Below are positions 29,463-44,084 of a stretch of DNA of 64,000 nt, in pieces. How positions within the stretch are numbered: position 1 is the first letter of the stretch; each line of letters begins with the position of its first letter. Source of the stretch: Archaeoglobus sulfaticallidus PM70-1 (lineage in GTDB: Archaea > Halobacteriota > Archaeoglobi > Archaeoglobales > Archaeoglobaceae); NCBI RefSeq assembly GCF_000385565.1, contig NC_021169.1, forward strand, positions 1,842,571 to 1,906,570. The letters run 5' to 3'. A program made the translations under genes and the position numbers. The notes beneath the pieces were generated by a model, which worked only from the letters and a program-made list of their open reading frames with translations, made no database searches and had not been told where the DNA came from.

Positions 29463-30287
29463 CTATTCTACATCTCCCGCCTCATACATCCATATGAGAT
29501 CGAAGTACTTCTTCATCCCGGCAACGAGGCTCGGATTATCTGTTACTGCAGAATCCCTCAGATATAGAGGAGTTTCTGGATCCTCAACGACGAATATTGC
29601 TTTGCCAGTTTTGTACTCATAACTTGGATCAACTATGCTACCTCTGAGCGGAAGAGGAGTTCTGCTGAGCTTAACTTCAGCACCCATGTCTGACTTTATC
29701 ATCTTCAGTACCTCGTTTTGAACCTTCATTCCCCTCTCATCGATGAACTTCCTGCCGAGAAGGAGTATTTTGATTTTCACCCCACGATTGAATGCATCCA
29801 CAAGCTCTTTTCTTACTTTAGGATAGTATTCAAAGCATCTGGAGACTATATTGATCTCCTTCTCAGCCTCCCTGTACATCAATCTTGTTTCCCTCTCACT
29901 CGCCTCTCCAACGCTAACTACCCTTATCAACTCTTTAGTTCTAAAGCTTGCAGGAGAGTATAGTGATGCAAAACTCCTGATCAATTCTTCCTTAACTCTG
30001 TCAAAAAAATCTATCCTGCTCTCGTATTCAATCATAATGTTGCTTTTCAGCCTTTCAAGGATTTCTTTCGGCTCCCTCACCCTGAATTTCACGGGTCTGC
30101 TGGGTATTTTATCTACCAGTCCGAGATCGGCAAGCTGATCGAGAACCTCATATATCTTTGCCCTCGGAACACCGCTGAGTTCACTGATCTCCGATGCCTT
30201 GGCCTCCCCACACTTAAGCAATGAGATCAGAGCTTTTGCCTGATAACTGCTCAGTCCGAGCTTTTCGAGAATGCTGGCTACCTCCAT
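29463..30287 (-). CDS. TrmB-family transcription regulator
   Basis: 274 residues. The N-terminal winged helix (LGLSSYQAKALISLLKCGEA, KASEISELSGVPRAKIYEVL) is typical of TrmB. Then comes a coiled segment and a C-terminal phospholipase-D-like or sugar-binding region. TrmB proteins usually sense sugars or sugar phosphates. It is divergent from the sugar-nucleotide cassette at 30362 and a long inverted repeat lies between the two, so it probably controls both itself and that cassette. It is likely leaderless. Confidence 0.9.
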   Translation of the reverse strand: MEVASILEKLGLSSYQAKALISLLKCGEAKASEISELSGVPRAKIYEVLDQLADLGLVDKIPSRPVKFRVREPKEILERLKSNIMIEYESRIDFFDRVKEELIRSFASLYSPASFRTKELIRVVSVGEASERETRLMYREAEKEINIVSRCFEYYPKVRKELVDAFNRGVKIKILLLGRKFIDERGMKVQNEVLKMIKSDMGAEVKLSRTPLPLRGSIVDPSYEYKTGKAIFVVEDPETPLYLRDSAVTDNPSLVAGMKKYFDLIWMYEAGDVE

Positions 30288-30309: not shown

Positions 30310-30349
30310 ATTTTAAATATTTTGTTACCACTTAGAGGGGTAACAAAAT
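30310..30349. promoter_or_regulatory. Divergent promoter and probable TrmB operator
   Basis: ATTTTGTTACC (30319-30329) and GGTAACAAAAT (30339-30349) form a perfect 11-bp inverted repeat with a 9-base spacer. AATTTTAAATATT at about 30310-30322 can serve as TATA in both directions. The repeat overlaps the promoter and probable transcription start of the cassette, which is the usual layout of a repressor or co-regulator site. Confidence 0.7.
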
Positions 30350-30361
30350 GGGGGTGCTATT

Positions 30362-31516
30362 GTGACAGTACTGGTAACAGGAGCTGATGGTTATGTCGGA
30401 TGGTGTGTTCTGCTAAGGCTTGCCGAGACCATGCCTGATGAAAGGATAATTGGAGTTGACAACTTTGCAAGAAGGAGATGGGTTGAGGAAGTTGGATCAA
30501 GATCACTCATACCGATACTCTCTCCAGAAAAGAGGAAAGAGATTGTTGAAGAAGAATATGGAAAGGTTTCATTCATAAACGGTGATCTAACCTCCCAGGA
30601 ATTCGTCAATACCATGCTGAGAGTGTATCAGCCCGACACGATCATACATTTAGCCGCCCAGCCCTCAGCACCATACTCGCAAATTAGCTGGGAGAAGGCT
30701 GTATATACGATGTACAACAACAATGTTTCCACATTGAATCTGCTATGGGGTCTGAAAGAGAACGGCATGCTCAACACTCATTTCATTTCAGCCACAACAA
30801 CAGGTGTTTATGGATCTCCAGAATATCCAATACCGGAAGGATTCTACGAGGTTGAGTACAAGGGTGGCAGAGATGTTGTTCCACACCCTCACATGGCAGG
30901 CAGCTTCTACCACATGAGCAAGTGCAACGACATCAACCACATGTGGCTGGCCAACAAACAGTGGGGACTGAACATCTCGGATGTTAGAGTGGGAATTGTC
31001 ACTGGAGCCACTACCGAGGAGGCTAAAGGAGAATTATCGACCCGCTTTGACTTCGATTTCTACTTTGGAGTCGTCACCCACAGATTCTGTGCACAGGCCA
31101 TGATTGGGTATCCAATAACCGTTTACGGCAAGGGTCTGCAAGGGAAACCCTTCGTGACACTTGAAGACTGCGTTAAATCTTTCGTTGAGCTTGCCATAAA
31201 AGGAGGAGAGGGATACAAAGTCTACAACCAGACCGTTGGTGCCGTGAAAATAGTGGAGCTGGCTGAAATAATCAGAGAAGCTGCAATGGAGGAAATAGGG
31301 CTTGAAGTGGAGATAAAGCATGTACCGAATCCGAGGGTTGAGAAAGAGGATCACGAGATGATCATGGAGAACGATAACTTCAGAAAGCTCGTTGGTAAAC
31401 CCCAGGATCTGAAAGATGCCATAAAAGATATCTTCACAGCCATAGAGCCAAGAAAGAAGATTATTGAAGCATACAAAGACAGATTTTTGCCGAAAGCCTT
31501 GCTTGATCGAAAATGA
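30362..31516 (+). CDS. agl3: UDP-sulfoquinovose-synthase-like (Agl3/SQD1) protein
   Basis: 384 residues from a GTG after GGGGGTG. An extended short-chain dehydrogenase with VTGADGYVGWCVLLRLA (NAD loop), a catalytic Thr-rich segment ATTTGVYGSPEYPIPEG and SFYHMSK (Tyr-x3-Lys). The long insertion and the VYGKGLQGKPFVTLEDCVKS region match SQD1/Agl3, which makes UDP-sulfoquinovose from UDP-glucose and sulfite. In Sulfolobus the product decorates S-layer N-glycans. It overlaps the next gene by four bases. Confidence 0.85.
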   Translation: MTVLVTGADGYVGWCVLLRLAETMPDERIIGVDNFARRRWVEEVGSRSLIPILSPEKRKEIVEEEYGKVSFINGDLTSQEFVNTMLRVYQPDTIIHLAAQPSAPYSQISWEKAVYTMYNNNVSTLNLLWGLKENGMLNTHFISATTTGVYGSPEYPIPEGFYEVEYKGGRDVVPHPHMAGSFYHMSKCNDINHMWLANKQWGLNISDVRVGIVTGATTEEAKGELSTRFDFDFYFGVVTHRFCAQAMIGYPITVYGKGLQGKPFVTLEDCVKSFVELAIKGGEGYKVYNQTVGAVKIVELAEIIREAAMEEIGLEVEIKHVPNPRVEKEDHEMIMENDNFRKLVGKPQDLKDAIKDIFTAIEPRKKIIEAYKDRFLPKALLDRK

Positions 31517-32433
31517 TACTGATCACAGGCGGTAATGGATACATCGGGATTGAAATCTCGGAGCTTCTAGCAGATAGAAATGAGGAGTTCAGAGTACTTG
31601 ACAATTTCTCTGGATCGAGTCCTCTGAACATGCTTTTCGTTAATGGAAAGGCTGAATTCATCTGGGGGGATGTGAGAAAGCCTGAGGAAATGAAAGAGGC
31701 TTTCAGGGATGTAGATGCCGTTATACACCTCGCAGCCAAACTTCCCACAGCCCCGGGAATGGTCGATGAGGCTGGAGATGTAAATGACACTAATTATCGG
31801 GGAACAGTAAATGTCCTTGAGCTTGCAAGAAAGAGCGATGCCAGTATGATATTCGCCTCCACATGCAATGTTTATGGCGTTGGCATGAACATGGATGAAA
31901 GTTCAGAGCCAAAACCCCTCAACAGCTATGCTGAATCGAAGCTTAAAGCTGAAAGAGCATGCATTGAATACCACGAGAAATACGGCCTAGATGTTAAAAT
32001 CCTGAGACTGGCTTCAGTTTACGGCTACAGCCCAGGAGTCAGGTTCAATCTCGTTGTGAACTATTTCACTCTACGAGCGGTTACAGGCTACCCGCTTACG
32101 GTTTTCGGGGATGGTAGCAACTGGAGGCCATTCGTGCATGTGAGGGATGTGGCAAAAGCTTTCCTGTTCTTCATTGAGAACGGAAAGAGCGGAGAGATAT
32201 ACAACATAGGCAGAGAAAACTACATGATAAGGGATGTTGCTGAAATCGTGAAGAGAGAGGTGAATCCATCCATAGATATTCTGTTCACGGGAAAGAAGCC
32301 TGAATTCAGCTATCATGTGAGTTTCGAAAAGTCCATACAGGCTGGATTTGAGGCAGAATATACCCTTGCTGAGGGTGTAAAGGGGCTTGCCGATAAACTC
32401 AAGATTTTGAAAAACTTCAGGAGGTCGTTTTAA
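31513..32433 (+). CDS. NAD-dependent sugar epimerase/dehydratase 1
   Basis: 306 residues. Extended SDR fold with ITGGNGYIGIEISELLADR at the N-terminus, HLAAKLPTAPG, FASTCNVYGVG and the catalytic NSYAESKLKAE (Tyr-x3-Lys). Related enzymes include UDP-glucose 4-epimerase and NDP-sugar dehydratases; the precise reaction is not determined. It overlaps the genes on both sides (ATGA and TAATG), so the three SDR genes form one tightly coupled operon. Confidence 0.87.
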   Translation: MILITGGNGYIGIEISELLADRNEEFRVLDNFSGSSPLNMLFVNGKAEFIWGDVRKPEEMKEAFRDVDAVIHLAAKLPTAPGMVDEAGDVNDTNYRGTVNVLELARKSDASMIFASTCNVYGVGMNMDESSEPKPLNSYAESKLKAERACIEYHEKYGLDVKILRLASVYGYSPGVRFNLVVNYFTLRAVTGYPLTVFGDGSNWRPFVHVRDVAKAFLFFIENGKSGEIYNIGRENYMIRDVAEIVKREVNPSIDILFTGKKPEFSYHVSFEKSIQAGFEAEYTLAEGVKGLADKLKILKNFRRSF

Positions 32434-33338
32434 TGCGTATAGGCGTTACCGGAGCTGGAGGTTATGTAGGTGCTGGACTCTGCAGCAAGCTGATGGAAAA
32501 GCATGAGGTTGTCATGCTCGACAACTTCTACAAGGCTCAGATTGGAAGCATAGGTGGAAAAAAGATTATCTGGGCAGATATCCGGGATAGAGCGGAAATG
32601 GAGTCCTTGCTTAGGGATTGTGATGTGATAGTGCACCTTGCTGCGATATCAGGGGTTGCCGAATGCGATGAGATGCCTGAAAGGGCATATGACGTAAACA
32701 TCATCGGAACCGAGAATATATGCTGGATTTGCAGAAAGTATGGCATCGATATGATATTCCCATCATCGATGGCTGTTGTTGGCAACCCGGTAGAGATCCC
32801 GATAACACCCAGACATCCGAGAAACCCGCTGAACATGTATGGATTTACGAAGTGGGTGAATGAGGAAAATATAAGGGCGTTTTCGAAGAACAGCTTTAAT
32901 GCCCTGATCTTCATGAAAACGAATCTGTATGGAGAGTATGAGGTTGATGGCAATAGGATATCGAAAAATACCGTGATCAACATATTCGCCAACAAGGCAA
33001 AGAGAAATGAGAACCTCACAGTACACAAACCCGGAACGCAGACCAGAGACTTCATACATGTCCTTGATGTCATTGATGCATATTTACTGGCCATCGAGAA
33101 CATGCCAGAGGGGTTCAACATCGTAACCCTCGCTGGAGGAGAGTGTTTGTCAGTTCTGGACATAGCCAATCTCGTCCAGAAATACAGCGATGTGGGGATC
33201 GATCTGGTTGAAAATCCAAGGAAAAAGGAGACACATGCTCCAAACTTTGAGGTTGATACATCCGAGATAAAAGAACTCATAGGCTTTGAATCAAAGCGGA
33301 AAGTGGAGGAAGAAGTAAGAAAACTGCTGGGTATTTAG
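32433..33338 (+). CDS. NAD-dependent sugar epimerase/dehydratase 2
   Basis: 301 residues. NAD loop GVTGAGGYVGAGLCSKL, HLAAISGVAECDEMPE, FPSSMAVVGNPVE and catalytic MYGFTKWVNEEN (Tyr-x3-Lys). It is only moderately like the gene before it, so it is more likely an enzyme for a different step than a recent duplicate. It ends the cassette, 45 bases before the convergent DUF255 gene. Confidence 0.87.
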   Translation: MRIGVTGAGGYVGAGLCSKLMEKHEVVMLDNFYKAQIGSIGGKKIIWADIRDRAEMESLLRDCDVIVHLAAISGVAECDEMPERAYDVNIIGTENICWICRKYGIDMIFPSSMAVVGNPVEIPITPRHPRNPLNMYGFTKWVNEENIRAFSKNSFNALIFMKTNLYGEYEVDGNRISKNTVINIFANKAKRNENLTVHKPGTQTRDFIHVLDVIDAYLLAIENMPEGFNIVTLAGGECLSVLDIANLVQKYSDVGIDLVENPRKKETHAPNFEVDTSEIKELIGFESKRKVEEEVRKLLGI

Positions 33339-39386: not shown

Positions 39387-39415
39387 AATATATTAATATT
39401 TTTTATTAATATATT
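39387..39415 (+). terminator. AT-only hairpin after glnK2
   Basis: AATATATTAATA and TATTAATATATT form a perfect 12-bp stem around a five-T loop, starting one base after the stop codon. It is a plausible transcription end for the amt2-glnK2 unit. The stem has no GC pair, which is weak at high temperature. Confidence 0.45.
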
Positions 39416-43780: not shown

Positions 43781-44084
43781 GGGGATCACCAAGATGAGTG
43801 GGTATGAATTACTATATATAGTTTGCGTAAGTTTAAACTCAGAGATAGCCAATTGAGCGTTGTACAGGGTTTTTGGAAACAACTTCAGCCAGTTCCATAT
43901 AATTCGGGGATTTAGCGGAAAAATTTACAATCGTCCGATCTGTTAAATTTTTGATTGAAATCAAAAATTGAATCCTGAACCTATCCCAAGTTGTTAGCTA
44001 AAAGATCTTCTAGTGTAACTCAATCAAAACCTAACTCTAACTTTTTTCCAGTTAGATCTACCAAAATCGGAAAATCAATTTTAT
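43781..44084. other. Divergent intergenic region
   Basis: These 304 bases hold the TIP49 promoter (TATATATA, 43813-43820, minus) and, at the right end, TTTATATGC (44080-44088, plus), centred 25 bases before the ATG of the next gene. The middle is AT-rich and I see no gene in it. A short inverted match, AAAATTTTTGATT...AATCAAAAATT near 43947-43971, could form a hairpin. Confidence 0.5.

Follow-up and report, generated by a model that had tools for sequence, protein, structure and literature searches.

The stretch of DNA analysed here (the window) comprises 64,000 nucleotides (positions 1842571-1906570) of the genome of Archaeoglobus sulfaticallidus PM70-1, a single contig of 2,076,931 bp (PMC3703591). 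It contains a gene for a TrmB-domain regulator (trmB) and, divergently oriented, a cassette of three genes, of which the first, agl3, is the proposed main target of the regulator. The 74-bp intergenic stretch between them holds a TATA-like element and a perfect inverted repeat (Table 1).

Table 1. Genes and DNA elements of the trmB/agl3 locus, in window coordinates.
Feature	Position	Strand	Sequence or basis
TrmB-domain regulator (trmB), 274 aa, winged HTH and PLD-like C-terminal domain	29463..30287	-	Profile matches, alignments
TATA-like element	30311..30319	+	TTTTAAATA; counterparts in the corresponding position in most Archaeoglobales relatives
Inverted repeat, perfect 11-bp arms, spacer of 9	30319..30349	.	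ATTTTGTTACC-ACTTAGAGG-GGTAACAAAAT
Candidate operator core, conserved 21-bp dyad	30324..30344	.	GTTAC-N11-GTAAC; comparison with relatives
Agl3/SQD1-like UDP-sulfoquinovose synthase homologue (agl3), 384 aa	30362..31516	+	Profile match and SQD1 alignment
NAD-dependent epimerase/dehydratase (epi1), cassette gene 2	31513..32433	+	Domain match; cassette kept in relatives
NAD-dependent epimerase/dehydratase (epi2), cassette gene 3	32433..33338	+	Domain match; cassette kept in relatives

The perfect 11-bp arms and the 9-base spacer of the original prediction were recovered by a repeat search. The span first assigned to them, 30310-30349, does hold the repeat, but from its start at 30310 it also covers the TATA-like element. 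The arms can be extended to 14 nt at 93% identity. Of 3000 dinucleotide-shuffled versions of the intergenic stretch, 2 contained a repeat with arms of at least 11 and a spacer of at most 20 nt, and each of ten shuffles of the whole window had 0 or 1; the repeat exceeds chance expectation. Since the window itself holds three, the repeat by itself is not unique. The two others lie at 39387-39415 (12-bp arms, spacer of 5) and 43946-43969 (11-bp arms, spacer of 2). Allowing up to 3 mismatches, the motif TTTGTTACC-N9-GGTAACAAA has a single match in the window, where 0.05 are expected; the rest of the 2.08-Mb genome adds one more, with 3 mismatches.

The perfect 11-bp arms were rejected as the functional unit, as relatives conserve only the 21-bp core, which in the Archaeoglobales takes the form GTTACYACT-N3-AGTRGTAAC. 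The outer ATTTT/AAAAT of the arms is mostly local A+T context. A gap of 4-5 nt separates the core from TTTTAAATA, which judging by its sequence is the probable promoter of agl3 and is possibly shared with trmB, as the promoter usable in both directions that had been proposed. A TATA-like element is present on the agl3 side of most Archaeoglobales loci; seen from trmB, the dyad comes right after an A+T-rich element, the putative trmB TATA. In the genome of A. sulfaticallidus the consensus dyad occurs once at up to 3 mismatches, and a larger regulon was not found there; the other exact GTTAC-N11-GTAAC of this genome, at position 1690163, has no agl3 nearby.

The regulator matches the TrmB DNA-binding domain PF01978 with 74.1 bits (gathering score 25.6, E-value 7.8e-21), and all 25 scanned orthologues match this domain at E <= 0.01. 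In an alignment to 3qph, the recognition-helix tyrosine Y46 coincides with Y50 of Pyrococcus furiosus TrmB, and it is invariant in the 25 aligned orthologues. The sugar-binding domain PF11495 reaches only 17.8 bits, below its cut-off of 22.2, over profile positions 16-78 of 233. By its sequence, the regulator is thus without a full TrmB sugar-binding domain, and because this domain is missing, the sugar signal initially envisaged for the locus is not supported. Against the TrmBL2 equivalog model NF041141 the protein scores 51.7 bits, with a cut-off of 530. The C-terminal domain is PLD-like, with a weak match to PF13091, and its invariant residues in 25 sequences include S208, P213, R215, G216, D220, S222, Y225, R244, T249 and N251, which makes a conserved ligand plausible. 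A structure predicted from five sequences was confident for the winged HTH domain and poor for the C-terminal domain (mean pLDDT 61.8). A plasmid search with one haloarchaeal orthologue as query returned no match.

The Agl3-like protein scores 368.4 bits against NF041015, below the equivalog cut-off of 575 (1-378 on 1-380 of 384), and is homologous to Arabidopsis SQD1 over nearly its whole length (1.3e-71). The TMGEYG and YHLSK motifs of SQD1 align with the threonine of TTTGVYG and the tyrosine and lysine of YHMSK, respectively; we take these SDR threonine and YxxxK tyrosine and lysine residues to have a catalytic role. By homology, the agl3 product is a putative UDP-sulfoquinovose synthase. 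The substrates of Sulfolobus Agl3 are given as UDP-glucose and sulfite in passages of PMC4388408.

The conservation of the dyad was examined at two levels. Among 57 genomes of the order (regulator E <= 1e-30, Agl3 E <= 1e-60), regulator orthologues are present in 9 and Agl3 in 10, including all 9. The regulator and agl3 genes are divergent neighbours or have a single PF03601 transporter gene between them (G030, G056), and their intergenic stretches carry GTTACYACT-N3-AGTRGTAAC-like dyads, mostly just after a TATA-like element. G030 and G056 carry a dyad at the trmB/transporter boundary and a second one immediately before agl3, which places the PF03601 gene under a dyad of its own. This inserted membrane protein, encoded at L025:2028-3512 (G030) and L024:2909-4249 (G056), belongs to a family of putative sulfate exporters. 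In addition, contig 13 of G005 bears a broken second trmB/agl3 locus (L031:7982-9782), with stops in both genes and the dyad kept at 3 mismatches. With 3 mismatches allowed, the consensus is unspecific within the order: 36 of the 57 genomes match it, and a reversed control pattern is about equally or more frequent; the comparison therefore relies on position, spacing and co-occurrence.

At the level of the phylum (392 genomes; regulator E <= 1e-35, Agl3 E <= 1e-60), the regulator was found in 37 genomes, Agl3 in 38 and both in 36 (Fisher p ~2e-47 with the relatedness of the genomes ignored, the genomes being related and the counts not independent events). Most of the 28 regulator genomes outside the Archaeoglobales are large and GC-rich, and we infer that these 28 are mostly haloarchaea. 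A dyad lies upstream of agl3 in all 36 genomes with both genes (20 exact, 10 with one mismatch, 6 with two), even where agl3 is far from the regulator gene. In random windows of the same loci, up to one mismatch is reached in 0.4% and up to two in 2.8%, so that the six sites with two mismatches are individually weak. The best palindromes of G035 and G041 are shorter by 3 nt, at a distance of ~50 nt from the agl3 start codon. For 25 of the 27 genomes outside the Archaeoglobales, 1-5 nt separate the end of the dyad from the ATG of agl3. Two genomes have agl3 and no regulator detected at the thresholds used, on which this absence depends: the best sites upstream of agl3 have 3 mismatches in G031 and 4 mismatches in G090, which keeps agl3-epi1-epi2, and neither counts as a dyad. 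The regulator of G065 is accompanied by an agl3-like gene of only 34%, without a dyad. G065 does have an exact dyad elsewhere (L067:13823), flanked by a nucleotidyltransferase gene and a 412-aa gene in divergent orientation, possibly a shifted target. Conservation at orthologous loci thus extends far beyond the genus, and the repeat goes with the divergent TrmB-like regulator and marks a sugar-nucleotide cassette, in agreement with the original prediction.

In 712,538 bases from 38 loci around regulators, exact GTTAC-N11-GTAAC occurs 31 times, and every other spacing from 0 to 24 occurs 0-2 times; in whole genomes, the exact dyad is present in 0-4 copies (37 genomes). A prediction was fixed in advance, that 13 remote GTTACT-type dyads in 11 regions would abut agl3. 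Ten of the 13 do, with the agl3 start within ~25 bp, and agl3 is absent from all 15 control regions, which surround exact dyads with a different inner sequence. The other three dyads coincide with the start of a microprotein gene, at its start codon, which was seen only afterwards and is therefore outside the prediction. This haloarchaeal microprotein has ~35-51 residues with the pattern HL...DG[AC]GC.E[IV]WE..SE, and its start codon is at or within the dyad. It also starts at the regulator-adjacent dyad in most haloarchaeal loci (L069-L093 next to trmB; L115:5999, L116:5736 and L118:7959 are further microprotein loci). Three microprotein sequences matched no Pfam family above the cut-off and nothing in NCBIfam. 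On the basis of these positions, the gene of ~40 residues is apparently a second target of the regulator.

The recognition helix varies together with its presumed target. Residue 44 is a lysine in the nine Archaeoglobales and G083, where at least one arm of the site has AC at positions 7-8, and an arginine in the 27 other genomes, where C[AG] takes this place in at least one arm. This covariation between residue 44 and the inner half-site, across few lineages, suggests a direct contact.

Taken together, the repeat is very probably the operator of the divergent TrmB-type protein, which would be a dedicated local regulator of UDP-sulfoquinovose synthesis. As far as sequence comparison reaches, the element first put forward as a candidate operator behaves as one in the conservation of the dyad, its position and its tracking of both regulator and target. 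From this we infer how binding, dimer contacts, repression, autoregulation and an effector may be combined. A regulator homodimer would place one recognition helix of its winged HTH domains on each GTTACYACT half-site of the 21-bp dyad. With the dyad placed after the TATA-like element and ahead of the agl3 start codon, the bound protein would block recruitment of RNA polymerase and repress agl3-epi1-epi2. The dyad also borders the element that presumably serves trmB, and the regulator probably controls its own gene in this way. Autoregulation would not be general, because G386 and G290 have no dyad at the regulator gene itself and some other regulator genes have a dyad only at the divergent microprotein gene. 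Release from the dyad may be brought about by a small molecule in the conserved PLD-like C-terminal domain; our guess is a metabolite of the sulfoquinovose pathway, preferably one on its sulfur side, more likely than a maltose-type sugar. A wider proposal is made tentatively, as one that may well prove wrong: a phylum-wide sulfoquinovose regulon, in which a TrmB subfamily without sugar domain senses sulfite or UDP-sulfoquinovose via the PLD-like domain, with an operator kept from hyperthermophilic sulfate reducers to haloarchaea, where it would also control the Cys/His microprotein as a partner in sulfosugar synthesis.

Several other explanations were weighed. With the same operator and regulator, the bound protein might activate agl3 instead. 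Activation is unlikely: TrmB-family proteins activate or repress according to the position of the site relative to the promoter (passages of PMC4158304 and PMC10817205), and the dyads of G035 and G041 lie upstream of the apparent agl3 TATA, but in the window and almost all remaining genomes, the dyad has the TATA-like element before it and the start codon after it, a position at which binding in other TrmB systems inhibits polymerase recruitment (passage of PMC10817205). It is scarcely credible that the repeat acts in RNA, as a hairpin or terminator, or that the palindrome arose by chance. Its perfect arms could fold as a hairpin and two other perfect repeats with arms of at least 11 bp occur in the window, but the repeat lies upstream of two divergent genes and so ends neither transcript, in 25 of 27 genomes outside the Archaeoglobales the dyad ends directly ahead of the agl3 ATG, and the dyad varies in its middle but not in its half-sites or spacing.

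The dyads might also be bound by a different regulator, in haloarchaea the global glucose-responsive TrmB of the VNG1451C type, with the local TrmB-like protein acting elsewhere. The haloarchaeal dyad GTTACTCA-N5-TGAGTAAC indeed contains TACT-N8-GAGTA, which fits the Halobacterium TrmB motif TACT-N7-8-GAGTA (passages of PMC4158304), and in Haloarcula hispanica two small proteins, each shorter than 50 residues, are likewise under TrmB control (passages of PMC10817205). We nevertheless regard this as quite improbable. The H. hispanica TrmB motif reportedly occurs 235 times (PMC10817205), against the few copies per genome of the exact dyad, and GTTACTC-N7-GAGTAAC, counted by eye, is present in 21 of the 37 genomes that have the local regulator and in 1 of the 355 that lack it. 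Furthermore, G090 keeps the agl3 cassette and has neither local regulator nor dyad, and the Archaeoglobales dyads differ in inner sequence, matching the changed recognition helix. Control by the divergent regulator, through repression, is accordingly the preferred reading.

Searches of open-licence PMC papers turned up no report that assigns an operator or a regulator to agl3. TrmB-family regulators acting at palindromic operators are already known; the subfamily, the operator and the sulfoquinovose target are apparently undescribed. Sulfoquinovose is a sulfosugar present on archaeal surface proteins, and its synthesis in archaea gains a candidate regulator with a well-defined operator and a predicted regulon that is very small. 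The shared operator would link a microprotein without annotation to this pathway, and the regulator argues against every TrmB-domain protein being a sugar sensor.

Among known systems, TrmB of Pyrococcus and Thermococcus shares with the present regulator the PF01978 domain, the recognition-helix tyrosine and a palindromic operator near TATA/BRE. Its operator is TACT-N3-AGTA (passages of PMC4158304), and in the Archaeoglobales the centre of the dyad reads YACT-N3-AGTR, with CACT in most cases; one strand reading of the window gives CACT-N3-GGGG. Unlike that TrmB, the regulator described here has no sugar-binding domain and its predicted operator measures 21 bp with outer GTTAC/GTAAC, and the target is predicted UDP-sulfoquinovose synthesis instead of maltose/trehalose transport. 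The best match among solved structures is TrmBL2 (PDB entries 5bqt, 5box and 5bpd; 1.4e-23, profile positions 4-178), which has a similar length and also lacks a sugar domain. TrmBL2 is an abundant chromosomal protein on coding and intergenic DNA (passages of PMC4158304), whereas a single discrete operator class is predicted here. The window enzyme, comparable to Agl3 of Sulfolobus acidocaldarius and to Arabidopsis SQD1, is homologous over nearly its full length to SQD1 and to the NF041015 model, though below the NCBIfam equivalog cut-off, and haloarchaeal enzymes of the Agl3 type cluster separately (passages of PMC4388408). The global TrmB of haloarchaea (VNG1451C; HAH_1548; TACT-N7-8-GAGTA) resembles the present system in its site, as the half-site GTTACTCA includes TACT/GAGTA with matching spacing; it differs in having a sugar domain and many sites, whereas the dyad described here is rare in each genome and tracks agl3.
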